Assembly (NCBI RefSeq): GCF_025273675.1
Contig: NZ_CP045809.1
Span: 558,001 to 622,000 of the forward strand
Origin: Gordonia pseudamarae
GTDB taxonomy: Bacteria; Actinomycetota; Actinomycetes; Mycobacteriales; Mycobacteriaceae
DNA length: 64,000 nucleotides
Reading direction: 5' to 3'
In this document: one piece after another, positions 11,390 through 27,033 of the stretch
Numbering within the stretch: position 1 is the stretch's first letter
Layout: every line of letters starts with the position of its first letter
Translations under genes and position numbers: made by a program
Notes under the pieces: generated by a model
What the model was told of the DNA's origin: nothing
Seen by the model: only the letters and a program-made list of their open reading frames with translations
Database searches by the model: none

Positions 11390-12904
11390 TCAGCCCCGGG
11401 AGGTGATGAGCGCCTCATAGACGGCCTCGAACCGCTCGGCCCGGTCCGCGTAGTAGGGCGCCCGGCCGGGATGCGGTTCGCACACCTGGCCGGGCTCCGG
11501 CCGCCATCGCTCGATCGATGGTGCCGGCCCAGCCGATGGGGCCACGATGTCCAGTGCGAGGCGGGCGGTGCCCAACAGGGTGGTGCGTTTGGCATCGACG
11601 ATCTCGATGGGCAGGCCGAGGACGTCGCTCACGGCCTGGAACAGTTCCGGGCGGGCGGTCGCGGCACGCCCGCCCGCGGCGATCTTGACCGCGCCGGGTG
11701 CGACGGGACGCAATTGGCGGGCGATGCGCGCGTAGCTCAGGGCGATACCTTCCACGACGCCGCGATAGATGTCGGTGGCGCTGCTCGCGGCACTCACCCC
11801 GGTCATGATCGCGCGGGCGTCGGCGGCCCAGCCGGTCGATCGTTCACCGGTGAAGAACGGCAGTACCAGCGGCGTCGTTTCCGAAGGTTCGGCGAGCAGC
11901 GCCGTGCGGATCGCATCGTCGGTGAGTTGGTCGGCGGCGAGGTTCCCCGCGAGCCAGTCGGTGGCCCGGCCCACGTCGTTCAGCGCGCCGCCGACGATCC
12001 ACTTCTGCGCCGACACCGCGTAGCACCACAGCCCGGGCGGCAGCTTCGCGGGCAACGTGTCGACAATCACCCGCAGCGCGCCGCTGGTGGCGCCGGTCGC
12101 GCCGATCGTGGTCGAGTCGGCGGCACCGAGTCCGACATTGGCCGAGAGGCCGTCGGAGACCGGAGCGAACCAGCGGGCACCGGCGATCGCCGGCCAGCGC
12201 CGGGCCGATTCGTCGGCCGCCCGGCCGATGGGTGTGAACGGGTCGTCGAGATGGTGGATCGGTGGCAGCTGATCTGGTGAAATACCGGCCAGGTCAATGA
12301 CATCCGCCGACCAGTCGCAGGCTCTGCGGTCCACCAGGCCGGTCCAGGAGGCGCAGGCGGTACCGGTGCCGTGTACCCCGATCAACCGGCGGTAGACGTA
12401 GTCGCCCAGCGACAGATAGCGCGCGGGGGTCAGATCGGGCCGGGTCGCGGACAGCCATCGCAGTCGGGCGGGCCAGTAGCTGGAGTGGATGCGGGTGCCG
12501 GTGAGCTGCTGCACGGCGTGTTCGTCGGCCTCGGCCCGCAATTGCTCCACCTGGGCGGCGCACCGTCCGTCGGCGTAGGTGAAACACGGGGTCAGCGCGG
12601 TGCCGTCACGGTCGACGGCGACCAACGACGAGGCGAAGGAGTCGAAGGCCACCGCTTCGACGAGGCCGGGCCGCACCCGGTCAGCCAGTACGTCGAGGAT
12701 CTGGGAGAGTTCGTCGACCACCTGGTCGGGGTCGATGGTCGAGGTGCCGTCGGCGACGGCGGTGAAGCTGTGCGGAATCTTGACTCGCTTGCCGATGGGC
12801 CGGCCGTGGGCGTCGTACAGCGCGCCGCGACATGCCGTCGACCCCACATCCAGGCCCAGAACGAGTGGCGGCTCGGCTTCGTCGAGCGGGATTCCCTTGC
12901 TCAC
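11390..12904 (-). CDS. FGGY-family carbohydrate kinase, probably gluconokinase
   Basis: A 504-residue FGGY kinase. The ATP-binding phosphate 1 loop is LVLGLDVGSTACRGALYD, with a later ATPase-fold segment IYRGVVEGIALSYARI and the adenosine motif KIAAGGRAATARPELFQAVSD. FGGY kinases phosphorylate sugars or sugar acids in the cytoplasm. The gene follows a GntP permease by 48 bp on the same strand, which makes gluconate the best guess; xylulose or another polyol is the alternative. No regulator of the GntR type is next to it. Confidence 0.8.
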   Translation of the reverse strand: MSKGIPLDEAEPPLVLGLDVGSTACRGALYDAHGRPIGKRVKIPHSFTAVADGTSTIDPDQVVDELSQILDVLADRVRPGLVEAVAFDSFASSLVAVDRDGTALTPCFTYADGRCAAQVEQLRAEADEHAVQQLTGTRIHSSYWPARLRWLSATRPDLTPARYLSLGDYVYRRLIGVHGTGTACASWTGLVDRRACDWSADVIDLAGISPDQLPPIHHLDDPFTPIGRAADESARRWPAIAGARWFAPVSDGLSANVGLGAADSTTIGATGATSGALRVIVDTLPAKLPPGLWCYAVSAQKWIVGGALNDVGRATDWLAGNLAADQLTDDAIRTALLAEPSETTPLVLPFFTGERSTGWAADARAIMTGVSAASSATDIYRGVVEGIALSYARIARQLRPVAPGAVKIAAGGRAATARPELFQAVSDVLGLPIEIVDAKRTTLLGTARLALDIVAPSAGPAPSIERWRPEPGQVCEPHPGRAPYYADRAERFEAVYEALITSRG

Positions 12905-12952
12905 GATTCTCTGTCCTCGAAAGTCTTTGTTGTCAGGCCGGCTACGTCTTTG

Positions 12953-14395
12953 TCAGGTGATCAGGCTCAGCAGCCAGACGAAGATGAATCCGACCACCGA
13001 GATGGCCGTCTCCATCAGCGACCAGGTTTTGATGGTCTGGCCGACCGTCATCCCGAAGTATTCCTTGACCAGCCAGAAGCCCGCGTCGTTCACGTGCGAG
13101 AAGAACAGCGACCCGCAGCCTATCGCGAGTACCAGCAGCGCAAGGTGATTGGCCGACAGGTCGGCGGCCAGCCCGGCGACGATACCCGCGGCGGTGACGG
13201 TGGCGACGGTCGCCGACCCGGTGGCCAGCCGGATACCGACGGCGACAAGCCAGCCGAGCAGCAACACCGAGATGTTCTTCCCGTCGGCCCAGTCCGCGAT
13301 GACGTTCCCGACGCCCGCGTCCACCAGGACCTGTTTGAAACCGCCGCCCGCACACACGATCAACATGATCCCGGCGACGCCGGGCAGGCCCCGGCCGAGC
13401 GAATCGCTGGCCTGGGAACGGTTCATGCCGCTGCCGAGTCCCAGCACGAAGTAGGCCACCGACACCGTGATCAGCAGCGCCACCGACGGCGTGCCGATGA
13501 CGTCGAAGATCTTGCGCGCCGTGTTGTCCTCGTCGGTGATGACCAGTTTGATGATCGCGTCGGGCAGCATCAGCGCGACCGGCAGCAGCAGCATCGCCAC
13601 CGCGCGGGAAAACCTGGGTTGCCTTGTCGCTCCGGTCACCTCCTGCGAGGTGGCCTCCCCGACGGCACCGACCGTCGCGTTCGCGTTGAGCGGCACGAGC
13701 CGGTCGAGGTACCGGCCCAGGATCGGCCCGCAGATGATCAGGGTGGGAATCGCCACGATGATGCCGAACAGCAGGGTGCGTCCGTGGTCGGCGCTCAGGC
13801 TCGCGATCGCCGTCTCCGGGCCGGGGTGCGGGGGCACCAGACCGTGCAGCACGGACAGGCCGGCGAGGGCGGGGATCCCGACGAGCATCAGCCGGTGCCC
13901 GGAGCGGCGGGCCACCATCACCACGATCGGCACCAGGATCACGACGCCGATCTCGAAGAACATCGGCAGACCGATCAGTGCCGCCATCAGCGTCATCCCC
14001 CAGGGCAGTGCGGCATCGGACAGTCTGTTGCTGATGGTGTCGACGACCCGTTGGGCGCCGCCGGACTCGATCAGGATCTGCCCCAGCATCGCGCCCAGGG
14101 CGACCAGTAACGCCACCGACCCGGCGGTCCCGGAGAATCCGCCGTTGGGGGAGATCGCGCCGGTGGTGAAACTCTTCACGGCGGTGGCACCGGGGATCCA
14201 GGCGACCAGCGCGACCGTGCCCGAGGCGATGAGCAGCGACAGGAACGGATGGAGCCTGATGACCGTGATCAACACGACGACGGCCGCGATGCCGGCGAGT
14301 GCCGCGAGAATCAGCTGGGTGTTTCCCGCGGAACTGATCTGTGTCGGCGCACTGATCTGTGTCGGCGCGTCCGCGGCGACGGCGAGCATGCTCAT
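12953..14395 (-). CDS. GntP-family gluconate:H+ symporter
   Basis: A 480-residue, very hydrophobic protein with about 12 to 14 predicted membrane segments and GntP-family features: FFEIGVVILVPIV, HGLVPPHPGPETAIASL, CAGGGFKQVLVDAGVG and GSLFFSHVNDAGFWLVKEYFG. Family members take up gluconate or related sugar acids with protons. It is upstream of the FGGY kinase, and together they would bring gluconate in as 6-phosphogluconate. The 9-residue direct repeat in the N-terminus (two copies of the sequence around APTQISA) has no known role. Confidence 0.88.
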   Translation of the reverse strand: MSMLAVAADAPTQISAPTQISSAGNTQLILAALAGIAAVVVLITVIRLHPFLSLLIASGTVALVAWIPGATAVKSFTTGAISPNGGFSGTAGSVALLVALGAMLGQILIESGGAQRVVDTISNRLSDAALPWGMTLMAALIGLPMFFEIGVVILVPIVVMVARRSGHRLMLVGIPALAGLSVLHGLVPPHPGPETAIASLSADHGRTLLFGIIVAIPTLIICGPILGRYLDRLVPLNANATVGAVGEATSQEVTGATRQPRFSRAVAMLLLPVALMLPDAIIKLVITDEDNTARKIFDVIGTPSVALLITVSVAYFVLGLGSGMNRSQASDSLGRGLPGVAGIMLIVCAGGGFKQVLVDAGVGNVIADWADGKNISVLLLGWLVAVGIRLATGSATVATVTAAGIVAGLAADLSANHLALLVLAIGCGSLFFSHVNDAGFWLVKEYFGMTVGQTIKTWSLMETAISVVGFIFVWLLSLIT

Positions 14396-14489
14396 CAGCG
14401 AAACGTAACGCAGATGCCGACGTTCGTCGGCCGATTGTCGAATAGAGGATCAGACGCGGCAGTGGCGAACGCGGCGCGGGCCCACCCGC

Positions 14490-15224
14490 TCACCTCGCCA
14501 CGTCGAGGGCGATGACTCCGGGGATGACACTGATGACCGTCGGCGGGCTCTGGTACTGCTCCCGCAGCACCGAGATCGTCGCCACGACCGGCCCGCCGCC
14601 GGTGGTCACGCTCGCCTCGGTCTGCAACGATGCCGGATAGCCGGTACTGCTCGGACGTGTGCGCCAATGCCGCAGGTCGACGGTTCCGGTCTTCCCGGAG
14701 GCGAGGTTGCGCCAGCCGACCCGCAGATAGCGGTATTCGTACAGCGGGTAATGCGGTGCGACGTTGCGGACGGTGAAGGTGACCGCCGCCGGGGGCGGCG
14801 GGAACTGCAGGGTGCGGGGACTCTGCGAGGCCGTGACGGTGATCTGCCGGAACGACCCGCCCGGGACATCGGCCGGCGGAATCTCCAGGCCGCCGGTGGC
14901 CGGGAGATGGAAACTCAGCCCGCTCGATACGGTGGCCGCCGGTGCTGCCGCCGCGACGGACGGGACGGCAGCCACCGCTCCGGCGGTGAGGAACGTTGCC
15001 ACGGCGGTACATACCCGCGATATCGAAAGATCTCGCGGCTTTGAAAGATCTTGCGGCGTCGAAAGTCCTCGTGGCATTGAAAGTCCTCGTGGCATTGAAA
15101 GTCCTCGGTGTCTTGGGGATCGGCGCCCGGCCGGGTACACGCCCCGAACCGGATGCCACATGCCCTCGGTGCCCGATGTTGTGGTCCCGTTAACCTCCTT
15201 ACCTGTCTTCGGCGGGTGCGTCAA
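14490..15224 (-). CDS. Secreted protein of unknown function with N-terminal hexapeptide repeats
   Basis: The frame encodes a basic N-terminus with five hexapeptide repeats (RGLSMP, RGLSMP, RGLSTP, QDLSKP, RDLSIS), a hydrophobic signal-peptide core (VCTAVATFLTAGAVAAVP), an Ala-rich cleavage region and a mature part of about 150 residues. I recognise no domain. The start is uncertain: the ATG at 15224 gives the longest protein, but a perfect AAGGAGG lies inside that frame at about codon 9 with no start codon at normal spacing after it, so translation may start at an internal ATG such as those in the repeats. Expansion of the 18-bp repeats may have moved the original start. Confidence 0.6.
   Translation of the reverse strand: MTHPPKTGKEVNGTTTSGTEGMWHPVRGVYPAGRRSPRHRGLSMPRGLSMPRGLSTPQDLSKPRDLSISRVCTAVATFLTAGAVAAVPSVAAAAPAATVSSGLSFHLPATGGLEIPPADVPGGSFRQITVTASQSPRTLQFPPPPAAVTFTVRNVAPHYPLYEYRYLRVGWRNLASGKTGTVDLRHWRTRPSSTGYPASLQTEASVTTGGGPVVATISVLREQYQSPPTVISVIPGVIALDVAR
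15017..15106. repeat. Five tandem 18-bp repeats inside a secreted-protein gene
   Basis: Units start at 15017, 15035, 15053, 15071 and 15089. The last two are identical and the others degenerate around GTGGCATTGAAAGTCCTC. Because 18 is a multiple of 3, copy number can change without a frameshift. Each unit adds one hexapeptide before the signal peptide. Confidence 0.9.
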
Positions 15225-15269: not shown

Positions 15270-15923
15270 TCATTGTCTTCCCTTCGTTGTGAGGTTCACC
15301 GACACTGATGCGCCGGACTTTTCGAGGACTTCCGCGGGCTGCACCCCGGGAGCCAGTTCCACCAGGGACAAGCCGTCCCCGGTCACATCGAGTACCCCGA
15401 GGTCGGTGATGATCCGGTCCACGACCCTGCGGCCGGTGAGTGGCAAGGTGTTCTCCCGCAGCAGTTTCGGTGACCCGTCGCGGGCCACGTGCTCCATCAC
15501 GACGATGACCTTCCGCGCGCCGTGGACCAGGTCCATCGCGCCGCCCATTCCCTTGACGAGCTTGCCGGGCACCACCCAGTTGCTGAGATCGCCCCGTTCG
15601 CTGACCTGCATGCCGCCGAGGATCGCGATGTCGATGCGGCCGGACCGGATCATCGCGAAGCTGGCCGCGGAGTCGAAGAAGCTGGCGCCGTCGAGTACCG
15701 TCACCGTCTCTTTGCCGGCGTTGATGAGATCCGGATCCTCTTCGCCGTCAAACGGATACGGGCCGAGGCCCAGGATGCCGTTCTCGGACTGCAGGACGAT
15801 GTGCAGATCCGCAGGGACGAATCCGGGAACCATTGTGGGCAAACCGATCCCGAGGTTCACGTAGTCGCCGTCGTGCAGTTCGGCCGCAGCCCTCGCGGCC
15901 ATCTCGTCTCGTGTCCAGGCCAT
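15270..15923 (-). CDS. scoB: Succinyl-CoA:3-ketoacid CoA-transferase, subunit B
   Basis: A 217-residue beta subunit of family I CoA-transferases, with [13 protein letters not shown] and the active-site glutamate motif [13 protein letters not shown]. The ATG at 15923 overlaps the stop codon of subunit A. It is the last gene of the ketone carboxylase operon. If the carboxylase makes acetoacetate or another 3-oxoacid, this enzyme would activate it with CoA from succinyl-CoA, ready for a thiolase. It resembles PcaJ (3124-3786); the operon context separates the two. Confidence 0.85.
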
Positions 15924-16723
15924 CACGCGGCACCTTCCCGTATCGCCGAGTCGTCGTGCGTCCGCACCGTCCGGCGTTCGATGCCCTTGCCCGCCACGTC
16001 GTGGACCGACAAGGGCAGGATCTGATTGACGTACACGCCGGGAAGGTGGATGTCGTCGGGGTCGAGCACACCCGGCTCCACCACGTCCTCGACCTCGGCG
16101 ATGGTCACCTTCGCCGCCATCGCGCACATCGGGTTGAAGTTGCGGGCCGCCTTGCGGAACAGCAGGTTTCCGTGCCGGTCTCCCTTCCAGGCCCGGATGA
16201 GTGCGACGTCCGGGTAGAGTGCGTGCTCAAGGACGAAGTCCCGTTCGGTACCGCGCCAGTCGAAGCGCTCCACGCGTTTGGGCGCCGAGGCCACGGCCAC
16301 TGAACCGTCGGCGGCGTACCTGATCGGCAGCCCGCCCTCGGCGACGACGGTACCGACGCCGCTCTGGGTGAAGAACGCCGCTATCCCGGCGCCCCCGGCG
16401 CGCAGCCGCTCGGCGAGGGTTCCCTGCGGGTTCAGTTCGATCTCGATCTCCCCGGCCAGGTACTGCCGTTCGAGTTCCTTGTTCTCGCCGACATATGAGG
16501 CGATGAGCTTGCGGATCTGCCGGTTCTCCAGCAGCAGCGAGTTGCCCACCCCGGCGATGCCGCAGTTGTTGGAGATGACCGTGAGGTCGCCGCTTCCCCG
16601 GCCGGCCAGGGCCGCCAGCAGCACGGTCGGGATGCCGCACACGCCGAAACCGCCGGTCGCGATGGTCATCGAATCCTCGACCACCCGCACTGCGGCGGCG
16701 GCGCTCGATACTTCCTTGTCCAT
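15923..16723 (-). CDS. scoA: Succinyl-CoA:3-ketoacid CoA-transferase, subunit A
   Basis: A 266-residue alpha subunit: [17 protein letters not shown] near the start, then [19 protein letters not shown] and [19 protein letters not shown]. The ATG at 16723 has GAAGGAAG 5 bp upstream. Four bases overlap subunit B. It follows the 16735-17520 gene by 11 bp, so it belongs to the carboxylase operon. Expected reaction: 3-oxoacid plus succinyl-CoA gives 3-oxoacyl-CoA plus succinate. Confidence 0.86.
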
Positions 16724-16734
16724 ATGTTCTTCCT

Positions 16735-17520
16735 TCACGCCAGATGCTTGAGCTTGTCGAGCACGACCTCGGGGTTCGCCTGCGCGGGAATTCTGGTCAG
16801 CACGATGTCGGTTTCGGGGACCGCCGAACCGCCGGACCAGAATTCGGCCGGCAGAATGCCGATGGTGGTGTCGGTGCCGGTGTCGACCCGGTCGGTGTAG
16901 CGCATCACGACCGACCAGCCGAAGTGTTGGGCCACGTTGGTGATCGAGGTGTATTCGGCGAGCGCCTCGGTCAGGCCGTCCGGTGTCTCTACGGCGTCCA
17001 GGACGACCGCGGCCACCGGCAGCGTCCCGAGCTGGCCGAGCCATTCGGCGACATACATCGAGGCCCCGTCCGCGTTGTCGGCGTCGATCTCCTCGATCGG
17101 CGTACCCGCGACCTCGTGTGCCCAGGCCAGCCAGGTTCCCGGTGAGGGCACCCGCAGGATCAGGCGCCGGCGGGTCGTGTCGGCGACCGTGGCGACGGCC
17201 TTGACCAACTGTTGCACCAGTTCCGGGTCGCCGAGCAGGGTGCGCAGCGCGTAGCCCGCGCGGCTTCGGGCACCCATGTCGGTGACGATGTCCGGTCGCG
17301 AATCCAGTTGGGCGCGTTGCCAGCGCTGGACGTCGACCCACGTGGCGTCGGCGTTGAGCAGCGCCTGAACCTGGCCGAAATATCCTGCCAGGGACGCGAT
17401 GTCGGTCCACGGCGGCGAGGATCCCTGGCCGATCACCGTGGTCGCGTAATCGGTGTCGTCGATGATGAGGGGGCGGCTGCGTCCGCTCGGGGGTGCGGCG
17501 GCGAGCGAGATGAGGCTCAT
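16735..17520 (-). CDS. Unknown protein in carboxylase operon, in the position of Apc5
   Basis: A 261-residue soluble protein that I cannot assign from motifs. The ATG at 17520 (MSLISLAAAPPSG) is preceded by AAGGAC; the longer frame to 17712 overlaps no better ribosome site and reads through the HyuB end. It lies directly after the HyuB-type subunit and before scoA. In the acetophenone carboxylase operon of Aromatoleum, as I recall it, a fifth, loosely bound subunit (Apc5, about 34 kDa) follows the HyuB-type subunit. The size here, about 28 kDa, and the place fit that role. This is inference from gene order. Confidence 0.55.
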   Translation of the reverse strand: MSLISLAAAPPSGRSRPLIIDDTDYATTVIGQGSSPPWTDIASLAGYFGQVQALLNADATWVDVQRWQRAQLDSRPDIVTDMGARSRAGYALRTLLGDPELVQQLVKAVATVADTTRRRLILRVPSPGTWLAWAHEVAGTPIEEIDADNADGASMYVAEWLGQLGTLPVAAVVLDAVETPDGLTEALAEYTSITNVAQHFGWSVVMRYTDRVDTGTDTTIGILPAEFWSGGSAVPETDIVLTRIPAQANPEVVLDKLKHLA

Positions 17521-17629
17521 GGGGGTGTCCTTGGCTGGCGAAATCGGGGGCCGGAGAAATCGGGTGCCGGCGGGAATTCGGGTGGACGTGTACCCGGGGA
17601 CGCGGTGGCATCCCCGGGTACACGCTGAG

Positions 17630-19933
17630 TCAGCGGAGTCTGCTGACCTTCTCGCCGTGCTTGGCTTCAAGCTCGGCGATGCGCTTCTCGAGTTTCGAGA
17701 TCTTGACCTCACGACGGTCGGGGATGTTGATGATCGGCAGTTCGGCCAGCGGCGCGGTCACCCGCTCCGGTCCGTCGATCCCGAACACCGTCGCGGTCAG
17801 TTCGTCGGTGTCCGATCCCCAGGAGCCGTAGTAGAGAAGGTCCTTCGGGGGTTCGGGCGTGACGAACCCGGCGCAGAACTCGGCGAAGGGCTTGCCGCGC
17901 TTGAGGCGCGCCTTGCGTGCGGCGGCGCGGGCCTTGTCGGTCGCCGCGATGTCGAGGCGGAAGGTCGCCGGGTCGTAGTGCACCGCGAAGATGTCCTCGG
18001 CGACCTTGCGGCTGATGCGGCCGAGTTCGGCGTCGGCGACAACCGACTCGGGTGCTCGCTCCAGCGGATCACCATAGCCGCCGCCGGCGCCCTGGCTGAT
18101 CATGTACAGCTCGCCGTCCTTGGCCCGGTCGAACTGCAGTCCCATGTGATAGGTCGAGTACTGACCGTCGGCGAAGGGCTGCTCGTTCATGATCTTCTCG
18201 ATCGACAGGTCGAACGTCTTGTTGTCGCGGCGGAAGTGCTCGTAGACGTTGGTGCCCTTGACCATCGCCAGTGGGTAGGTGCCGCAGCCGTAGCCGCCGT
18301 ACATCCCGTAGATGGAGGAGAACTTGGCGCCCGAGGTGACCGTCATGAATCCCCACTCCGGGGTGCCCTCGGCCGCGACGATCATCTCGTAGCCCATGCC
18401 GCCGTTGAACTTTCCGAAGCCCATGTTGTCACGGACCAGTCGCTTGGCCACCAGCTGCATGAACGGGACCTCTTCCTCCATCACCTCCTGCTCGGCGGTG
18501 TCGGCCATCGCGCAGAACAGCGGGGACACGGCGTCCTCGCCGTCGCGGAACGGCTTTGCGCCACCGGGCATCCCGTTGAGGTCGGCGCAGAGGTTGCCCA
18601 CCATGTCGCCGTGCTGGGTGATGCCGCCCCACAGGAACGTGTTGATCTGGTTGAACCAGTTGGCGACGACATTGCTGTACTTGTTCGGCGTCGAGAACGA
18701 GATGCGGCTGTAGAGCGCCTGCATCATCGAGAACCCGCGGAAAGAGGCCTGCAGCGACTGTCCCATCGGGGCGTCGTAGGAGGCGTCGGCCCAGGTGCCC
18801 TCGTCGGAGATGATCTCGATGCAGCTCATCGCGGCCGTGCACCGCGGCAGATCCGGCCACCAGAATGCCAGGATCGCCTGCATCATCATCGATTTCACCG
18901 AACACAAGGGTGAGTTGATCGCGCGGTTGCGGATCTCGGGTCCGGTGCCACGAAGATCCACGGTCATGTGATCACCCTTGATGGTGACCTCGCACGCGAT
19001 CTTGATGAGGATGTTCTCCTTGAGCGTGCTGTCCATGAACTGATCGAAACGGTAGGTGCCGTCGGGCAGTTCGGCGATCCGCCGGCGCACCTCGGCGTCG
19101 ACGTCCTCCACCGTGGTGCGCAGCGCGGCCACGAACGTGTCCACCCCCACCTCGTCGATCACCTTGTCGACGCGCTCCATGATCTTGCGGACAGCGGTGA
19201 TCTTCACCTTGAGGTCGGCGAGCTGCAGTTTGGGATCGCGCACCGAATGCTGAAGGAAGGTCAGCAGATCCCGGCGCAGGTGGCCGCGTTCGACGATCTT
19301 GAACGGGCTCATCCGCAGGCCGTCATCGAACGGGGTCTCCGAGCCCGACGGCATGCCGCCCGGCTCACAGGCGCCGTTCTCGCCCTCGTGGATGGTCGCG
19401 GCCACCCAGGCGATGATCTGGTCGTCACGGATGATCGGCATGATCATCGACTGATCGGTGTTGTGCACGTTGCCGTATCGGGCATCGTTGTGGATGAAGC
19501 CGTCACCGGGGTGTACGCCGACGGTCGGCTCGTCCTTCCAGTACTTCATGATGTAGCGGATCGGGTGGTGCAGGATCGCGCTGAAGGCGATGACGCCGTG
19601 GCAGGACAGGTAGGAGACGTCACCGGCGGCGGTGTAGATGGCGGTCGTGAGGTCGCCCCACTTGGCGCCGGGTGCCGCGCCCTGCGCCTCGCACATCTCG
19701 TAGCCCTCGTCGAGTGCGCCGGCGATGCGCTTGCGGATGCGCTCGACCTCGAGCCGGTCGATGCCCGCGGCGATGGCGATCTCTTCGTGGTCGGTGCGCG
19801 CGGAGATGCTGTGATCGCGCATGATGTCGGGGTCGGGCCCCAGGAACAGGGTGGTCTCGTCCATGAACTTGTCCACCCACTCCTGCTCTTCGGGAGTGAG
19901 GGGAGTGACGGGACGTTCGTTGATTGCGGTCAT
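17630..19933 (-). CDS. HyuB-type subunit of an ATP-dependent ketone carboxylase
   Basis: A 767-residue hydantoinase B/oxoprolinase-family protein. Features include GVIAFSAILHHPIRYIMKYW, HNDARYGNVHNTDQSM, VDLRGTGPEIRNRAINSP and the glycine-rich QGAGGGYGDPLERAPE, with a charged helical C-terminus (KISKLEKRIAELEAKH). In acetone and acetophenone carboxylases this subunit carries out the carboxylation while HyuA-type subunits use ATP. The presence of the gamma-like zinc protein at 22128 separates it from plain hydantoinase or 5-oxoprolinase operons. The start at 19933 has GAAGGA 6 bp upstream. The ketone used is not determined: acetone, butanone or an aryl ketone are possible. Confidence 0.82.
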   Translation of the reverse strand: MTAINERPVTPLTPEEQEWVDKFMDETTLFLGPDPDIMRDHSISARTDHEEIAIAAGIDRLEVERIRKRIAGALDEGYEMCEAQGAAPGAKWGDLTTAIYTAAGDVSYLSCHGVIAFSAILHHPIRYIMKYWKDEPTVGVHPGDGFIHNDARYGNVHNTDQSMIMPIIRDDQIIAWVAATIHEGENGACEPGGMPSGSETPFDDGLRMSPFKIVERGHLRRDLLTFLQHSVRDPKLQLADLKVKITAVRKIMERVDKVIDEVGVDTFVAALRTTVEDVDAEVRRRIAELPDGTYRFDQFMDSTLKENILIKIACEVTIKGDHMTVDLRGTGPEIRNRAINSPLCSVKSMMMQAILAFWWPDLPRCTAAMSCIEIISDEGTWADASYDAPMGQSLQASFRGFSMMQALYSRISFSTPNKYSNVVANWFNQINTFLWGGITQHGDMVGNLCADLNGMPGGAKPFRDGEDAVSPLFCAMADTAEQEVMEEEVPFMQLVAKRLVRDNMGFGKFNGGMGYEMIVAAEGTPEWGFMTVTSGAKFSSIYGMYGGYGCGTYPLAMVKGTNVYEHFRRDNKTFDLSIEKIMNEQPFADGQYSTYHMGLQFDRAKDGELYMISQGAGGGYGDPLERAPESVVADAELGRISRKVAEDIFAVHYDPATFRLDIAATDKARAAARKARLKRGKPFAEFCAGFVTPEPPKDLLYYGSWGSDTDELTATVFGIDGPERVTAPLAELPIINIPDRREVKISKLEKRIAELEAKHGEKVSRLR

Positions 19934-19958
19934 TGTGTGTCCTTCGTTGGTGGGCGGG

Positions 19959-22088
19959 TCAGTCCTGGAGGAACCAGACCGCGCCCTGCTTGGTCGGTTC
20001 CAGACGCCACGTGGGCTCGACGAGGAATGTGGTGGTCTCGGTGGTCACGATGGCCGGGCCGGGAATGACCCGATCGGCGGTGAGGGCCGCGTCGTTGTAG
20101 ACGGGGGTGTCGATGGCCTTGTCGTGGCCGATGAAGTACGCCTTGCGATGGCCCACCGGATCCGGCACGGTACGTTCCCCGCCGCTTTCCAGCGCGTCGA
20201 AGTTGACCACGTCGCCGTCGACGAAGGCGGCCACGCGCACGGTGTTGCAACGGATCCCGGCCTCCGGCGCGGCCGACGCGGCGCCGAATCGGTGACTGTA
20301 CACGTCGCCGAAGGTCTTGATGATGTCCAGTACGTCGCCGACGCCCGACACCCGGGTCAGGTCCTCGAGCGCGACGGCCTGGGTGAGAAGCTGGTTGCCG
20401 TAACGCATGTCGAGTTCCAGCCGGAACTTGACGTCGTCGCCGGCGAACCCCTGCCGGACCAGGTCCTCGCGCCCCTTGGCCTCCAGGTCCTCGATCACCG
20501 CGTTGATCTCCGCGTAGTCGTCGTACAGGGCGCGGGTGGTGGCGTTGTACAGGGTGACGTGTACGCCGCGCTCGTGGAAATGCAACTGCCGCATGTTGCC
20601 CGCGCCGCAGGCCGAGAACACCGATGAGAATGGCGGTGCCAGAACGCGTTTGATTCCGGCGTGGCGGGCGATGCCGCAGGCGTGCAGCGGGCCGTTGCCG
20701 CCGTAGGCGAGCATGGTGAAGTCCTCGGGCAGGTAGCCGCGCACGCGCAGTTCCTTGCCGATGCCGATCGCCATCTGCTCGTCGACGCCGTCCTTGATGA
20801 CCCGGGCGACCTCGATGACGTCCATGTCGAGGTGATCGCACAGGTTTTCCTCGATGGCGAACCTGGCGCGCTTCGGGTTGAGCTTGATGTACCCGTTGGC
20901 GTAGTTGTCGGGATCGAAGTATCCGAGTACCAGGTCGGCGTCGGTGACCGTGGGCTTGAGACCACCCCGGTCGTAGCAGGCCGGACCCGGATTGGAGCCC
21001 GCCGACTGCGGACCGATCTTCACCGAGTTGTGGATGCGATCGTAGCCGGCGATCGAACCGCCACCGGCTCCGAGGGTGTCGAGGTGAACCATCGGCACCG
21101 ACACCAGCCAGCGATCGATGGTGGGCAGGAAGTCATAGTGTTTCACACCGCCCTCGGGCACCAGGCCGATGTCGAAGGACGTGCCGCCCATGTCGGTGGA
21201 GATCAGGTTGCCGACCCCGGTCTCGTTCGAAAGGTGTTCGGCGGCACCGACACCGGCAATGGGTCCGGAGTGGATGGTTTGCAGCGCGTCCGTCGAGTTC
21301 ATCTGCGCCATGCCGCCGGAGTTGTGGATCACCAGCATCGGTCGGTCATAGCCGAAGTCGCGCAGGTTGTTCGACAGCTGCGACAGCGCGTGGAACATGA
21401 TCGAGTGCAGATATCCGTCGACGATGGTGGAGGTGGCTCGCACATACTCGCCCTTGCGGCCGGAGACCTGGTGTCCCAGCAGGACCGGGATGGCGCCGAG
21501 CTCGTGCGGCGGGAACTCGTCGAGGATGATCTCCTGGATCGCCAGCTCGTGTTCGGGGTTCTCGGTCGCGTTGGTCAACGACACCACGATGGCCTCGGCG
21601 CCGGCGTCGACCAGTTCGCGCACGACCTTGCGGACATCGTCGGGATCGATTCGGGCGACGATCTTTCCGGCCGAGTTGATGCGTTCCTTGACCGATCGGA
21701 TGAGCGAGCGTGCGACCAGCGGCTCGGGACGTTCGGCGGCCGGCAGGTTCTGCTGCATCGAGTAGTCCAGGCCCTCGCCGTAGCCGCGGCCACGCGAGAG
21801 CGGGATGGTGTCCTCGAAGCCGTGCGTCACGATGGCCGCCACCTTGGGGCCGTTGCGCTCGATGAGCGCGTTGGTGCCCAGGGTGGTGGCATAGCGGACC
21901 GAGTCGACCTCGGAGAGGACGGTCGAGCGGTCGAGTCCGGCCCGCTTGCAGGCGAGATCGAGTGCCTCGTTGAATCCGAGCGCGAGATTGTGGTGGGTGG
22001 TCAGCGCCTTGGCGTCGACGTAGATGTCGTCCCAGACGAAAAAGCAGTCGGTGAAGGTACCACCGATGTCAACGGAGATGCGTTTCAT
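19959..22088 (-). CDS. HyuA-type subunit of an ATP-dependent ketone carboxylase (long form)
   Basis: A 709-residue hydantoinase A/oxoprolinase-family protein of the ASKHA fold. The phosphate-binding motif is VDIGGTFTDCFFVWDD, followed by YATTLGTNALIERNG, STDMGGTSFDIGLV and LAYGGNGPLHACGIARHAG. It is close to AcxA or Apc3 in length. It would activate the ketone and bicarbonate by ATP-dependent phosphorylation. It sits 25 bp upstream of the HyuB gene. A second, shorter HyuA paralogue (22592-24499) starts the operon, which is a feature of acetophenone carboxylase rather than the three-subunit acetone carboxylase. Confidence 0.84.
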   Translation of the reverse strand: MKRISVDIGGTFTDCFFVWDDIYVDAKALTTHHNLALGFNEALDLACKRAGLDRSTVLSEVDSVRYATTLGTNALIERNGPKVAAIVTHGFEDTIPLSRGRGYGEGLDYSMQQNLPAAERPEPLVARSLIRSVKERINSAGKIVARIDPDDVRKVVRELVDAGAEAIVVSLTNATENPEHELAIQEIILDEFPPHELGAIPVLLGHQVSGRKGEYVRATSTIVDGYLHSIMFHALSQLSNNLRDFGYDRPMLVIHNSGGMAQMNSTDALQTIHSGPIAGVGAAEHLSNETGVGNLISTDMGGTSFDIGLVPEGGVKHYDFLPTIDRWLVSVPMVHLDTLGAGGGSIAGYDRIHNSVKIGPQSAGSNPGPACYDRGGLKPTVTDADLVLGYFDPDNYANGYIKLNPKRARFAIEENLCDHLDMDVIEVARVIKDGVDEQMAIGIGKELRVRGYLPEDFTMLAYGGNGPLHACGIARHAGIKRVLAPPFSSVFSACGAGNMRQLHFHERGVHVTLYNATTRALYDDYAEINAVIEDLEAKGREDLVRQGFAGDDVKFRLELDMRYGNQLLTQAVALEDLTRVSGVGDVLDIIKTFGDVYSHRFGAASAAPEAGIRCNTVRVAAFVDGDVVNFDALESGGERTVPDPVGHRKAYFIGHDKAIDTPVYNDAALTADRVIPGPAIVTTETTTFLVEPTWRLEPTKQGAVWFLQD

Positions 22089-22127
22089 GAATTGGCTCCT
22101 GGGGGAATGCGGTCGCGGCGGACCGGA

Positions 22128-22556
22128 TCATCGAATGTGGCCTGCGGCTTTGAGTTCTGCGGTGTACTTCTGCGCGTCCTCGCCGGGCCCGTAGTTGTGG
22201 ACCTCCTCGGCGTCGACGCCACGCTCTTCCCACTGCGCGCGCAGCGCGGGGATGTCGATGATCATGTCGATGGCCGGCGGGTGGCCCGGCGGCAGGTATT
22301 CGACCTCGATCTGCGTCGCGCAGCCGGGGCAGTAGTACTCGACGATGCGGCAGTATCCCGGGTCGGGACTGAAGGTGTACTCGTACCGTTCGGGATCGAT
22401 GATCGGCTGGTGGATCTCGCGCGGATCACGGTCGTAGGCGAGGGTTCCGGGCTTGTAGTTGCCGTGCGCCGAGCCCATGTCGTGGGTGCACACGCGGCAC
22501 AGCCAGCGTTCGGTCTCGAGGTCGATCGACAGGTATTCGGTCATGGGCACTCGCAT
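22128..22556 (-). CDS. Small zinc-type subunit (AcxC/Apc2-like) of ketone carboxylase
   Basis: A 142-residue protein with two cysteine pairs, WLCRVCTHDMG and EYYCPGCATQIEVEYLPPGH, spaced like a zinc-binding site. This matches the small gamma-type subunit of acetone carboxylase (AcxC, about 19 kDa) or Apc2 (about 15 kDa). Its presence marks the operon as a ketone carboxylase. AAAGGAGGG lies 5 bp before the ATG at 22556, a very strong ribosome site. It lies between the two HyuA-type genes. Confidence 0.82.
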   Translation of the reverse strand: MRVPMTEYLSIDLETERWLCRVCTHDMGSAHGNYKPGTLAYDRDPREIHQPIIDPERYEYTFSPDPGYCRIVEYYCPGCATQIEVEYLPPGHPPAIDMIIDIPALRAQWEERGVDAEEVHNYGPGEDAQKYTAELKAAGHIR

Positions 22557-22591
22557 GAGAGCCCTCCTTTCGGATGGGTGGGTGGGCCGCG

Positions 22592-24499
22592 TCAGTGGTG
22601 GTCGGACAGGAGCAGGTCGCCGGCGGCGGTGACCTGGAAGTACCAGCCGGGCAGCACGCGCGCGGTGAAGAACGGGCCCTCGATGATCGCCGGGCCCTCA
22701 CCGACGTGGCCGGGGCTCAGGTCGTCGAGGACGTGGACGGCGACCTCGTCGACCCGCTCGGCCGACGAACGCACCGCGCGGGTGCCCGACGACGGGGCCG
22801 CGGCCACGGTGACCGCACGGTCGGCGTCGAGCTCGGGGTGCGGCAGACGGGCGGTGACAGTCAGTTCCAGCGACAGCGCGTGTCCGGGGTACTCGACCTC
22901 GTCGCCGTCGGTGTAGGGGATCCGGCTTGCTGATCCGTCGTCGAGGTTCTCCAGGACGAGCTGCCAGTCGGTGTCGCAGTCGGTGAGCGCGTATCCCTCC
23001 TGGAACATGTCGCGTTCGGCGCGGGCGGCGAGGCCGGCGTACGCCTGCGTCGCGGCCGCCGGGGTCGCCTCGTTGAGGATGACCTCGTAGGTTTTGCCGA
23101 TGTCGGAGAACGCGATACCGAAGGCGGAGAACACCGCCGCGGTGCGGGGGATCAGGACGCGCCGGACTCCGGCGAGCCGGGCCGCGCCCGCCGCGCTCAT
23201 GGGTCCGGCGCCGCCGAAGGCGAGCAGCGTGGTGTCGGGTTCGACCCAGCGTTCGAAGGCGCCGGCCAGCGCGGTGAAGTACGCGTTCTCCATCCGCACG
23301 AGAGCCTCTTCGAGGCTGACGCCGAGCGGTCGGGCGACGGTCTCGGTGATGACGGCACGAGAGCGCTCGGGGTCGAGGGTGAAGGTGCCGTCGAGGTAGG
23401 TGTCGGGGTCGAGCACGCCGAGCAGCAGGTTGACGTCGGTGATGGTGGCCTGCTTGCCGCCGAACCCGAAGCAGGCGGGCCCGGGTGCGGCGCCGACGGA
23501 TTGGGGACCGACGGTGATCCGGCCGTCGACGACCTCGATCACCGACGAGCCGCCGACACCGGTCGACCCGACATCGCTCATGGCGTAGGAGATGTCGACG
23601 CCTTCGATGGCGCCGCGCTCACGGACCAGGACCTGGTTGTCGCCGACGACGCCGACATCGGTGGTGGTGCCGCCGATGTCCATCATGAGCGCGTGGCGCA
23701 GGCCGTACACCTTGGCCAGGGCTGCGGTGCCCTCCAGTCCGCCGCGCGGGCCCGAGGAGTAGGTCTTGAGCGCGATCGACTTGGCCACGCGCGAGGACGC
23801 GCCGTCGTTGCGGTAGACCAGCAGCGGGTTGGCGACCTTGTACTCCTTGAGACGCCGCTCGGCGCCGTAGAGGAAGCGTTCCATCGTGGGGTGCAGGAAG
23901 GCGTTGATCACGCACGACCAGGTGCGGCGGGCGGCGTCGCGATCGCCGGCGAGTTCCCAGCTGTAGATGAGCGGGACCGAACCGAGCAGGTGGCGCGGAA
24001 ATTTGCGCAGCAGGATGTGACGCAGGGTGTGCTCCTGGTCGGGGTCGGACCCGACGATGACCACACGAGCGGCGCCGAGCGTGGTGAGCCGGTTGACCAG
24101 CTGTACCGCGTCGAATTCCAGGTCGGCGGAGTTGGGGTCGACGACCAGGAAGCGGTCACCGATGACACCGTTGCGCAGCTTCTCCGCGGCGGGTGTGGTC
24201 ACCATCCGATCGGCGAGGTCGGCGATGGTGGTGACCACACCGATCATCGGTCCCTTGCGCTCCACCAGGGCGTTGGTGCCCTGGGTCGTGGAGTAGCGGA
24301 TGTGCTGGGCCTGATGCAGCAGGCGGGTCAGGTCGGCGTCGCCGTAGAGCTTCGCCGAGGCCTTCTCGATGCCGGCGAACAGGCATTCGGACAGGTCATG
24401 CGGGGTGGTCAGAGTCTTGGTGAAGCTGAGCTCGGTGCCATCCCACACGCAGATATCGGTGAGCGTGCCACCGTTGTCGATGTTGATGAGGGTTTCCAT
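22592..24499 (-). CDS. Second HyuA-type subunit of ketone carboxylase (short form, Apc1-like)
   Basis: A 635-residue HyuA-family protein: LINIDNGGTLTDICVWDG at the N-terminus, YSTTQGTNALVERKG, MMDIGGTTTDVGVVG and LAFGGAGPMSAAGAARLAG. The phosphate loop has DNGGT instead of DIGGT, a small change from its paralogue. I chose the ATG at 24499 because homology begins there; an ATG at 24535 is in frame but gives unrelated residues. It is the first gene of the operon and diverges from the regulator at 24717. Two HyuA genes of different length plus the small zinc subunit recall the Apc1-Apc2-Apc3 order. Confidence 0.82.
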   Translation of the reverse strand: METLINIDNGGTLTDICVWDGTELSFTKTLTTPHDLSECLFAGIEKASAKLYGDADLTRLLHQAQHIRYSTTQGTNALVERKGPMIGVVTTIADLADRMVTTPAAEKLRNGVIGDRFLVVDPNSADLEFDAVQLVNRLTTLGAARVVIVGSDPDQEHTLRHILLRKFPRHLLGSVPLIYSWELAGDRDAARRTWSCVINAFLHPTMERFLYGAERRLKEYKVANPLLVYRNDGASSRVAKSIALKTYSSGPRGGLEGTAALAKVYGLRHALMMDIGGTTTDVGVVGDNQVLVRERGAIEGVDISYAMSDVGSTGVGGSSVIEVVDGRITVGPQSVGAAPGPACFGFGGKQATITDVNLLLGVLDPDTYLDGTFTLDPERSRAVITETVARPLGVSLEEALVRMENAYFTALAGAFERWVEPDTTLLAFGGAGPMSAAGAARLAGVRRVLIPRTAAVFSAFGIAFSDIGKTYEVILNEATPAAATQAYAGLAARAERDMFQEGYALTDCDTDWQLVLENLDDGSASRIPYTDGDEVEYPGHALSLELTVTARLPHPELDADRAVTVAAAPSSGTRAVRSSAERVDEVAVHVLDDLSPGHVGEGPAIIEGPFFTARVLPGWYFQVTAAGDLLLSDHH

Positions 24500-24588: not shown

Positions 24589-24609
24589 GGTGTCCCACGA
24601 TGAGACACC
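24589..24609. promoter_or_regulatory. Palindromic operator between carboxylase operon and its activator
   Basis: A 21-bp dyad: GGTGTC (24589-24594) and GACACC (24604-24609), with inner CA and TG also matching. Its right half, TGAGACA, recurs at 26600-26606. It lies between the divergent promoters, so the activator at 24717 may bind here. Binding is inferred. Confidence 0.5.
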
Positions 24610-24716
24610 GAGGGCCTTGGATTGTGACCCATGTCTCGTTCACTATGTGTGAGTACACGTCGCGCCCGTGTCTGTGCCGAGGTCGACGAATGAACGGCGA
24701 GAGGCGGAAGACAAAC

Positions 24717-26564
24717 ATGCCCAATACCGACAATCGACTGCTGCGCGTGGCCGCCGCACGAGCCGATTTCCTGGAATCAGGCTCGCAGGGGGCGGCCGGC
24801 GTGGGCGATATCGTTGTCGCGTCGTGGGAGCGCAGTCATGCCGCCGGGGTCGATGTCGCCGCCGCGCACAGCACCTTCACCGACGGGATCGACACCGGGT
24901 CGTTGCTGGTCAGATGTGCCCGCCCGGTACTGGAACAACTCACCAGCGACACCGTGGACATGCCACTGGTGATCGCGCTGACCGACAGCCACGCCCGGGT
25001 GGTTCAGCGCGTCGACGCCTCGGTGGCGGTCGGGCGCCTGCTCGAACGCGTCGACTTCGCGCCCGGATTCACCTACGCCGAATCGACGATGGGCACCAAC
25101 GGGGTGGGTACCGTGTTCGAGGCCGGGCAGCCGGTGAGTGTGGTGGGGCCCGAACATTTCACCGAGCATCTGCAGCAGTTCGCCTGTACCGGTGCGCCGA
25201 TCATCGACCCGATGACCCGGCGCATCGAAGGTGTACTGGACATCTCGACGCTCAGCCACACGTGGAGCCCGATCATGCACGCGCTGGTCAAGAGTGCGGC
25301 CAAGGACATCGCGCAGAACCTGCTGCTCGATCGCAGCCAGGCGCAGCAGGCGATCTTCGCGACCTACCTGCGGGAATCCGTGCGCACCACCAAGAACGCC
25401 GTCTTCGCGTTCGGCGGGTCGGTATTCATGGCCAATGACATCGCGCAGGCATGGTTCGACACGGCCCAGCAGAAGGTGCTGCGTGAACACGCCGCGTTCC
25501 TGATGACCCGCAAGGACCGGATCAGCGACACCGTCCCGCTGGGCGACGGCAGGCACGTGCACATCACCGGAACCCGCATCATGACCGGCGCCGACGTGGC
25601 CGGGATGGTGGTGATCGCCGAGATCGTCGCCGGACGCAGGGCCGGAATGTCGGTGGACTTCGCCGATCACCACCTGCCCGAGATCGGCGTGACCACACAG
25701 GCGACGTCGTCGATCATCGACGACCTGTCGCGCCCGCGCGAGACCATCGTCTCCGGACGTTCCCCCGCCTGGCTGAGCGCGTGCCGGGAATTGCGTACCG
25801 CACTGGCCGAGCACACTCCCACGATCGTCGTCGGCGAGACCGGCGCCGGAAAGTTCACCCTGGTCACCGAGCTGTTCCACGCGCTGTTCGACGACGCCCG
25901 CAGCATCAGTGTCGACGCCGAAGAATTTGCCGCGCACTATGATTCGGCGGAAGTGGAGAAGCTCATCAATCCGGGTTCGGCGCCGACGCTCTACATCCTG
26001 CGCAACATCGACCAATGCACCACCGATGCCGCCGAGCAGGCCGAGCGGTTTCTCACCACGCTCGACGGCGTCGACGGGCCGGTCTGGTACATCGCGACGC
26101 TCTCGGACTCGGCCCTCGACTCCGACCTGCCCTTCCGGCAGATGCTCGGACACTTCGGTGCCTCGGTCAACATCCCGCCGCTGCGCTTTCGCACCGACGA
26201 CATCGATCAGGTGACGGCGTCGCTGCTGCGATTACTCGCCCCCGAGCGCAAGGTGCGGATCAGCCCGGAGGCGCGTCGGGTCATCAACCGGTATTCGTGG
26301 CCGCGCAACGTGTCCCAGTTGCACGAAGCCCTCGTTCACGCGCTCCGCCGACGCCCGGTCGGCGAGATCCAGGCGAGTGATCTGCCCGGCTACTGCCAGA
26401 GCTTCGCGCAGCGGACCCTGACCCCGGTGGAATCGGCCGAACGCGACCTGATCGTCTCGGCGCTGCGGGCCAACGACGGAAATCGTTCCGCCGCAGCGGA
26501 ACAGCTCGGTATGGCGCGATCGAGCCTGTACCGCAAACTCCGCACGTACGGGATCGCCGGCTGA
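24717..26564 (+). CDS. AcoR/AcxR-like activator with GAF, degenerate AAA+ and Fis domains
   Basis: About 615 residues. The N-terminus has VASWERSHAAGVD and a GAF-type sensor (AESTMGTNGVGTVFEAGQPV). The central region keeps a Walker A-like GETGAGKF, but Walker B is degraded (LYILRNIDQC) and I find no GAFTGA loop, the sigma-54 contact. The C-terminus is a Fis helix-turn-helix (RSAAAEQLGMARSSLYRKL). Actinobacteria lack sigma-54, so this protein must activate another polymerase form, as proposed for MimR-type regulators of propane and acetone genes. The start is uncertain: ATG at 24717, or 24690 with GAGG 7 bp upstream. It diverges from the carboxylase operon and probably controls it. Confidence 0.8.
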   Translation: MPNTDNRLLRVAAARADFLESGSQGAAGVGDIVVASWERSHAAGVDVAAAHSTFTDGIDTGSLLVRCARPVLEQLTSDTVDMPLVIALTDSHARVVQRVDASVAVGRLLERVDFAPGFTYAESTMGTNGVGTVFEAGQPVSVVGPEHFTEHLQQFACTGAPIIDPMTRRIEGVLDISTLSHTWSPIMHALVKSAAKDIAQNLLLDRSQAQQAIFATYLRESVRTTKNAVFAFGGSVFMANDIAQAWFDTAQQKVLREHAAFLMTRKDRISDTVPLGDGRHVHITGTRIMTGADVAGMVVIAEIVAGRRAGMSVDFADHHLPEIGVTTQATSSIIDDLSRPRETIVSGRSPAWLSACRELRTALAEHTPTIVVGETGAGKFTLVTELFHALFDDARSISVDAEEFAAHYDSAEVEKLINPGSAPTLYILRNIDQCTTDAAEQAERFLTTLDGVDGPVWYIATLSDSALDSDLPFRQMLGHFGASVNIPPLRFRTDDIDQVTASLLRLLAPERKVRISPEARRVINRYSWPRNVSQLHEALVHALRRRPVGEIQASDLPGYCQSFAQRTLTPVESAERDLIVSALRANDGNRSAAAEQLGMARSSLYRKLRTYGIAG

Positions 26565-26897: not shown

Positions 26898-27033
26898 GTG
26901 CGCCGCGAGACGCAAGACACAGAGTAGCAAGCCCACGGGCGGCGCGAGCAGGGGGTACCCCTGGGTGGGACGTCCGTACCTTGTCGTTCGCCGGGCGTTC
27001 ACAATCTCGCCGCATGCCGCACAATGGTCGCTT

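Follow-up and report, generated by a model that had tools for sequence, protein, structure and literature searches.

A predicted five-subunit ketone carboxylase operon of Gordonia pseudamarae as a new branch beside acetophenone carboxylase

The closest described systems to the operon discussed here are the acetophenone carboxylase (Apc) of Aromatoleum aromaticum, encoded in the order apcABCD(E), and the well-studied acetone carboxylases (Acx) (PMC5214803). Apc has two separate kinase sites and Acx only one, hence their mechanisms differ, and as of 2017 only one Apc had been biochemically characterised (PMC5214803). We have analyzed a stretch of 64,000 nucleotides (the window; NZ_CP045809.1, positions 558,001 to 622,000) of Gordonia pseudamarae, whose genome consists of one contig of 5,147,008 bases. 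On the minus strand, between positions 15270 and 24499, seven genes lie head to tail and encode, in this order, the predicted subunits alpha', gamma, alpha, beta and epsilon, followed by ScoA and ScoB. We propose, with a probability of roughly 0.6, that they specify a biotin-independent, ATP-dependent five-subunit carboxylase of acetone or another small aliphatic ketone together with the next enzyme of the pathway, where the activity, the substrate and the order of the steps are inferred by analogy with Apc.

A comparison of the core subunits with their relatives, made among solved structures only, provided a consistent link to ApcA-D. The alpha' subunit (22592..24499; 635 aa, 67.8 kDa) is an ApcA-like HyuA protein with ApcA (PDB 5l9w) as its best relative at 268.8 bits, followed by ApcC (194.0), oxoprolinase (137.9), N-methylhydantoinase (133.3) and Acx (120.7). 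The gamma subunit (22128..22556; 142 aa, 16.3 kDa) matches the Pfam family Acetone_carb_G (PF08882) with 124.8 bits and is closer to ApcB (117.8 bits) than to the Acx gamma subunit (27.4). The ApcC-like HyuA protein alpha (19959..22088; 709 aa, 76.8 kDa) scores 513.2 bits with ApcC, 291.8 with Acx and 283.3 with oxoprolinase, and the ApcD-like HyuB protein beta (17630..19933; 767 aa, 85.1 kDa) scores 291.0 with ApcD, 144.1 with Acx and 90.2 with hydantoinase. The ranking by NCBIfam models concurs with this. The subunit lengths give a mixed picture, as gamma is closer in size to that of Apc (129 aa) than to that of Acx (168), whereas beta is closer to that of Acx (776) than to that of Apc (684).

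The fifth gene (16735..17520) encodes a protein of 261 aa and 28.0 kDa without a Pfam match. Its AlphaFold model (pLDDT 96.8) has a uroporphyrinogen-decarboxylase (UROD)-like barrel, and the top three Foldseek matches were crystallised ApcE. By sequence alone the similarity is weak (profile score 10.7 bits, E 0.0019; hhalign probability 28%; no match to NF042977). Going by the predicted fold and the position of its gene, the protein is the epsilon subunit, a homologue of ApcE. The last two genes, scoA (15923..16723; 28.2 kDa) and scoB (15270..15923; 22.9 kDa), pass the cut-offs of TIGR02429 (224.5 versus 128.5) and TIGR02428 (312.1 versus 243.55), respectively, for the two subunits of 3-oxoacid CoA-transferase. 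The nearest PDB chains of ScoA are succinyl-CoA:3-ketoacid CoA-transferases (SCOT) and that of ScoB is 3cdk_B, a SCOT subunit B. Taken in gene order, the Pfam assignments are Hydantoinase_A, Acetone_carb_G, Hydantoinase_A, Hydantoinase_B, none, CoA_trans and CoA_trans. A search of the host genome at E 0.001 recovered one HyuB protein in all and no HyuA protein besides alpha' and alpha.

The first-pass annotation of this DNA had placed seven minus-strand genes at these positions and with these lengths, and all were recovered as described; the extent it gave, 15270..24499, holds the seven genes but leaves out a divergent regulator gene at 24600-26564 (see below). Its proposal of an Apc-like architecture, with the same order and number of subunits, was borne out by the core subunits and by the fold of the fifth, which it had listed as unknown, as was its reading of scoA and scoB as a 3-ketoacid CoA-transferase. 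The intergenic distances from alpha' to scoA are 35, 39, 25, 109 and 11 nt, and scoA and scoB overlap in the sequence TGATG; because of these short gaps and the overlap the seven genes are likely to be carried on a single transcript. That alpha' starts at 24499 is supported by its M1, which does not vary among 21 aligned sequences.

Many of the residues expected in such an enzyme are in place. The ASKHA motifs are kept in both alpha and alpha', and the ATP motifs DNGGTLTD, DIGGT and GAAPGP are present in the latter. In gamma two CxxC pairs constitute a predicted zinc site (C20, C23, C76 and C79). The metal ligands of Acx are Glu89, His150, Asp153 and His175, according to PMC10865871 and PMC5543143. 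The corresponding columns of beta hold D94, H157, D160 and H182; thus both His residues and the Asp of Acx are kept, and an Asp takes the place of Glu89. In the R/KERiDsxG fingerprint alpha reads KERINSAG, with Asn in place of Asp.

A tree of 51 HyuA proteins, with rows from 20 of the 80 fetched loci described below, was in line with the ranking for alpha', which joins two authentic ApcA sequences with a support of 100/99, within a separate clade of 22 rows. The alpha subunit belongs to a supported clade of its own, the branching of which relative to ApcC, Acx and oxoprolinase is an open fork; long branches (Acx, oxoprolinase and one hydantoinase-type row) meet in this tree and the program gave a long-branch warning. 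A grouping with hydantoinases or oxoprolinases, named in the first-pass annotation as a result that would speak against its proposal, was not obtained, since alpha' goes with ApcA and alpha, despite the open fork, is by score far nearer to ApcC than to Acx or oxoprolinase.

The match to Apc nevertheless has a clear limit. Although homology, gene order and the fold of the fifth subunit support it, the NCBIfam equivalog cut-offs for ApcA-E were all missed widely (321/1250, 129/250, 546/1500, 315/1500 and, for the fifth subunit, no match). The ketone pocket of ApcC is formed by L81, F281, N282, P285, I333, Q344 and T345 (PMC5214803). At these positions alpha reads T-I-H-P-I-H-L, both ApcC sequences examined read L-F-N-P-I-Q-T and Acx reads L-I-V-P-M-A-M, so that five of the seven residues of alpha differ from both authentic ApcC sequences. 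Of the other 20 alpha rows of the clade, 17 share T-I-H-P-I-H-L; the exceptions have V for I (L081 and L083) or R for the second H (L082), and a further row from Panacagrimonas (L107) also has V. By both the cut-offs and the pocket, the operon type is not Apc proper. As judged from sequence, it is a new branch beside acetophenone carboxylase, distinct as well from the well-studied acetone carboxylases.

The distribution of this branch was studied in the best 80 of 325 stretches encoding relatives of alpha', which together with the window make 81 loci, the loci that supplied query genes included. By their records 74 of the 80 relatives are actinobacteria, the other six being from Marinobacter, Psychrobacter (three loci), Panacagrimonas and a Nevskiaceae metagenome-assembled genome (MAG). 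The order alpha'-gamma-alpha-beta is present in 79 of the 81 loci, and the remaining two stop at a contig end. With epsilon included the order is found in 73 loci; seven of the other eight are cut by a contig end and one (Panacagrimonas, L081) is without epsilon. A five-gene order kept in so many loci does not reflect chance, and the subunit set that was initially called unusual turns out to be the standard of a broad actinobacterial clade. The genome of Panacagrimonas perspica (G060) contains a true ApcABCDE operon that passes all NCBIfam cut-offs (L106) and, besides it, three gene clusters that belong to the present clade. Of these, L081 has alpha'-gamma-alpha-beta but no epsilon, L107 has gamma-alpha-beta, and L108 combines alpha' and epsilon with an acetoacetate-CoA ligase. 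The presence of both types in one genome argues for different jobs.

Within the genus and the family the occurrence of the operon is sporadic. The gamma family was found over its cut-off in six of 59 Gordonia genomes, and precisely these six encode a full-length alpha' (49-100% identical); a seventh genome had a weak HyuA match only. In the family sample of 351 genomes, a search for alpha' at E 1e-100 gave 18 genomes, of which 17 have a strong match and one a distant match of 352.6 bits. Gamma was found in 21; 18 of these have alpha', and in the other three the gamma match is weak (25-34 bits) and lies inside a long frame that matches HyuB. One such frame (L131, in genome G477) matches HyuB and, across 75 residues, gamma, which suggests a HyuB-gamma fusion. 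In a sample of 396 genomes of the wider phylum gamma was present in 22 and alpha' at E 1e-150 in two; the gamma family thus also occurs without a close alpha'. Two of the loci, from Mycolicibacterium agri (L013) and Gordonia paraffinivorans (L020), are 97.7% identical across 15.6 kb, which points to a recent transfer or a contaminated record.

The genes found around the carboxylase genes in the various loci give an indication of the substrate. The counts that follow are based on mechanically called open reading frames and blastp, uncurated, and are lowered by the contig-cut loci kept among the 81. Both scoA and scoB are found in 23 loci each; 20 loci have a thiolase (two kinds counted together) and 20 have a match to a zinc alcohol dehydrogenase (ADH). 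The best solved match of the ADH query is indeed a zinc ADH, with isopropanol dehydrogenases lower in the list. In the 55 loci that have at least 4 kb past epsilon, the same-strand genes within 4.5 kb downstream include scoB in 14 cases, scoA in 12, ADH in 10, thiolase (the first kind only) in two and the AMP-ligase query in one. The genes scoA, scoB and thiolase follow directly behind epsilon in the Corynebacterium loci L028 and L034. The Nevskiaceae MAG (L083) has a complete cluster, which reads alpha'-gamma-alpha-beta, a short-chain dehydrogenase/reductase (SDR), epsilon, a protein of 154 aa and an acetoacetate-CoA ligase; similarly, L108 of Panacagrimonas, also one of the Nevskiaceae, reads alpha', SDR, epsilon, a protein of 161 aa and an acetoacetate-CoA ligase, with gamma-alpha-beta located elsewhere (L107). 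Both ligases pass the equivalog cut-off of TIGR01217 (819.8 and 817 versus 520.9). The small proteins in between (L083:18566-19030 and L108:3814-4299) have no NCBIfam match, and among the 25 of 124 matches listed for the Panacagrimonas SDR no NCBIfam cut-off was passed. The neighbouring SCOT-type CoA-transferase, thiolase, ADH and acetoacetate-CoA ligase point to acetone or a small ketone. That the enzyme carboxylates a ketone of some kind seems very probable from its genes, and acetone or another small aliphatic ketone would probably, though with appreciably less certainty, be the substrate.

By analogy with Apc the following course of events may be envisaged. The ketone substrate would derive from a secondary alcohol, and its enol would be phosphorylated by alpha, the predicted ketone kinase, whereas alpha', the predicted second ASKHA kinase, would phosphorylate bicarbonate. 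Beta and gamma would form the metal-bearing scaffold, to which epsilon with its UROD-like barrel would dock, letting the two activated substrates meet, upon which the 3-oxoacid would be released. ScoAB would then transfer CoA from succinyl-CoA onto the 3-oxoacid and a thiolase would cleave the resulting 3-oxoacyl-CoA.

Several observations weigh against this proposal, among which the wide misses of the ApcA-E cut-offs have been given above. The residues presumed to bind bicarbonate in Apc are not maintained in alpha': ApcA E248/D274/K281 correspond to S/D/D in all 22 alpha' rows of the clade, so that two of the three pocket residues, E248 and K281, are changed. As the role of alpha' in bicarbonate activation is tentative for Apc itself (PMC5214803), this change is hard to read. 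In 58 of the 81 loci scoAB is lacking in the fetched DNA, and eight of the 20 ADH matches share no more than 29-37% identity with the query. The acetoacetate-CoA ligases are neighbours in proteobacterial relatives, the alpha' of which is only 47-49% identical to that of the window, and one of these two clusters (L108) has no gamma-alpha-beta alongside. The ten flanking frames scanned between 6960 and 31865, the part of the window covered for this purpose, encode neither an alcohol dehydrogenase or thiolase nor an enzyme known to form ketones. Finally, the literature searched, with most subscription journals outside it, yielded no activity measurement on a member of the clade, no growth or proteome data that tie the operon to a ketone, and no papers on the substrate or the fifth subunit of the clade.

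The same evidence bears on what else the enzyme could be. Since the nearest solved relatives are Apc subunits, it might be an aromatic ketone carboxylase, namely an acetophenone carboxylase in the strict sense, with ScoAB acting on an aroylacetate; in Rhodococcus ruber Chol-4, of a species represented in the clade by locus L033, genes with a Fis-type regulator are annotated as apc1-4 (PMC6498646). However, with the Apc cut-offs missed and the pocket residues changed, an aromatic substrate is unsupported, whereas Panacagrimonas holds passing ApcA-E genes apart from its clusters of the present clade. Moreover, Aromatoleum employs a benzoylacetate-CoA ligase (PMC4729919) and not SCOT. We therefore regard an aromatic substrate as unlikely. 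A carboxylase acting on a bigger or unusual ketone, for instance a cyclic ketone or a methyl ketone with a longer chain, whose 3-oxoacyl-CoA would go into thiolysis, seems slightly less likely still: it would suit a pocket unlike those of both Acx and Apc, but the acetoacetate-CoA ligase equivalogs in two related clusters speak against it. CoA-transferases and thiolases of these families can take more than acetoacetate, which counts in its favour.

It is quite improbable that the operon encodes an ATP-dependent hydrolase of the hydantoinase, oxoprolinase or caprolactamase kind with additional subunits. The Pfam families are those of HyuA and HyuB, most source names among the best 120 relatives follow the pattern 'hydantoinase/oxoprolinase family protein', and the CapA model scores 427.8 bits on alpha. 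Yet enzymes of that kind have two subunits (PMC5214803), whereas gamma, alpha' and epsilon are present and conserved here; in addition, alpha' groups with ApcA, and the metal-site residues and the 3-oxoacid CoA-transferase suit carboxylation. The reading as a carboxylase of a small aliphatic ketone is accordingly the one that we prefer.

For this reading an enzyme reported in 1999 is of particular relevance. An acetone carboxylase induced by acetone and isopropanol was described in Rhodococcus rhodochrous B276, according to PMC5059922 and PMC12214560, and PMC4443254 lists strain B-276 under the name Gordonia rubripertincta, with Rhodococcus corallinus as its former name. The 351 sampled family genomes showed no Acx-type gamma gene, in a search in which AcxA and AcxB were not sought separately; against the Pfam model used for gamma, a fragment of Acx gamma of 91 residues reaches 158.9 bits, and a canonical AcxC should therefore have been caught. 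This makes the present type the strongest candidate for the genes of the B276 acetone carboxylase, and because none of the 59 Gordonia genomes has gamma outside an operon of this type, the B276 enzyme is most likely of this type. Clark and Ensign reportedly found subunits of 85, 74 and 16 kDa for the B276 enzyme in 1999, sizes that resemble the predicted masses of beta (85.1 kDa), alpha (76.8) and gamma (16.3). A more far-reaching suggestion, which we put forward tentatively and at somewhat less than even odds, is that the clade represents a third type of biotin-independent ketone carboxylase, an Apc architecture of five subunits and two kinases retuned for acetone and other small ketones, that it is the principal acetone carboxylase among actinobacteria of the Mycobacteriaceae group, and that it includes the B276 enzyme, with alpha' and epsilon overlooked in 1999. 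An acetone carboxylase has been named in a Frankia (PMC5059922), an acetone monooxygenase features in the acetone proteome of an actinobacterium (PMC7176365), and a biotin-dependent carboxylase has been proposed for acetovanillone in Rhodococcus (PMC8461187). The last two reports imply that carboxylation by the present operon type is not the sole actinobacterial ketone route.

The operon is preceded by a divergent gene at a distance of 100 nt on the plus strand (24600..26564), which encodes an AcoR/DhaR-like regulator of 654 aa with the Pfam domains GAF, AAA_lid_14 and HTH_8 (a Fis-type helix-turn-helix). The best NCBIfam match is DhaR with 118.7 bits, short of the cut-off of 551. In 56 of the 81 loci a relative of this regulator stands divergently upstream, and in four more it is encoded on the same strand. 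The Pfam matches in the ten flanking frames comprise a GntP permease, an FGGY kinase, VanY, LysR, Rieske, enolase-like, CitMHS and Fer2/FAD proteins, with two frames lacking a match. Past the regulator, a CitMHS-family transporter (26965-28701) is a possible carrier. Downstream of the operon, the FGGY kinase and the GntP permease (11390-14395) probably serve the use of a sugar acid, unrelated to the operon. Also downstream of scoB, a tandem array of 4.6 copies of an 18-base unit (15022-15107) lies at the start of a minus-strand frame of 254 aa (14395-15159).

If an Apc architecture indeed acts on small aliphatic ketones, the distinction between aromatic and aliphatic substrates would not explain the split in mechanism between Apc and Acx. 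Genes would then be available for actinobacterial acetone carboxylation, many 'hydantoinase' annotations would have to be corrected, and a second full five-subunit set, epsilon included, would be at hand for study.

A comparison with the known systems summarizes the position of the operon. It shares with Apc (ApcABCDE of A. aromaticum; PDB 5l9w for the core and 9fou for ApcE) the gene order, the number of five subunits, the homology of the core and the fold of ApcE, as well as the two ASKHA kinases, the zinc cysteines of gamma and the D/H/D/H metal residues of beta (PMC5214803). Unlike Apc, it misses all the equivalog cut-offs, has a ketone pocket changed in five of seven residues and a bicarbonate pocket changed in two of three, a beta subunit of 767 rather than 684 aa, and a SCOT instead of the benzoylacetate-CoA ligase. 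With Acx (AcxABC; PDB 5svb and 5m45) it has homologous alpha, beta and gamma subunits, a similar length of beta (767 versus 776 aa) and probably the same kind of product in common; however, Acx has only three subunits in the order acxABC (PMC5214803), lacks alpha' and epsilon and has a gamma of 168 aa, its ligand Glu89 is an Asp here, and its pocket differs. Finally, 5-oxoprolinase, hydantoinase and caprolactamase resemble the operon in the folds of HyuA and HyuB, whereas they differ from it in having two subunits (hydAB), in performing a hydrolysis, and in having no gamma, alpha' or epsilon (PMC5214803).

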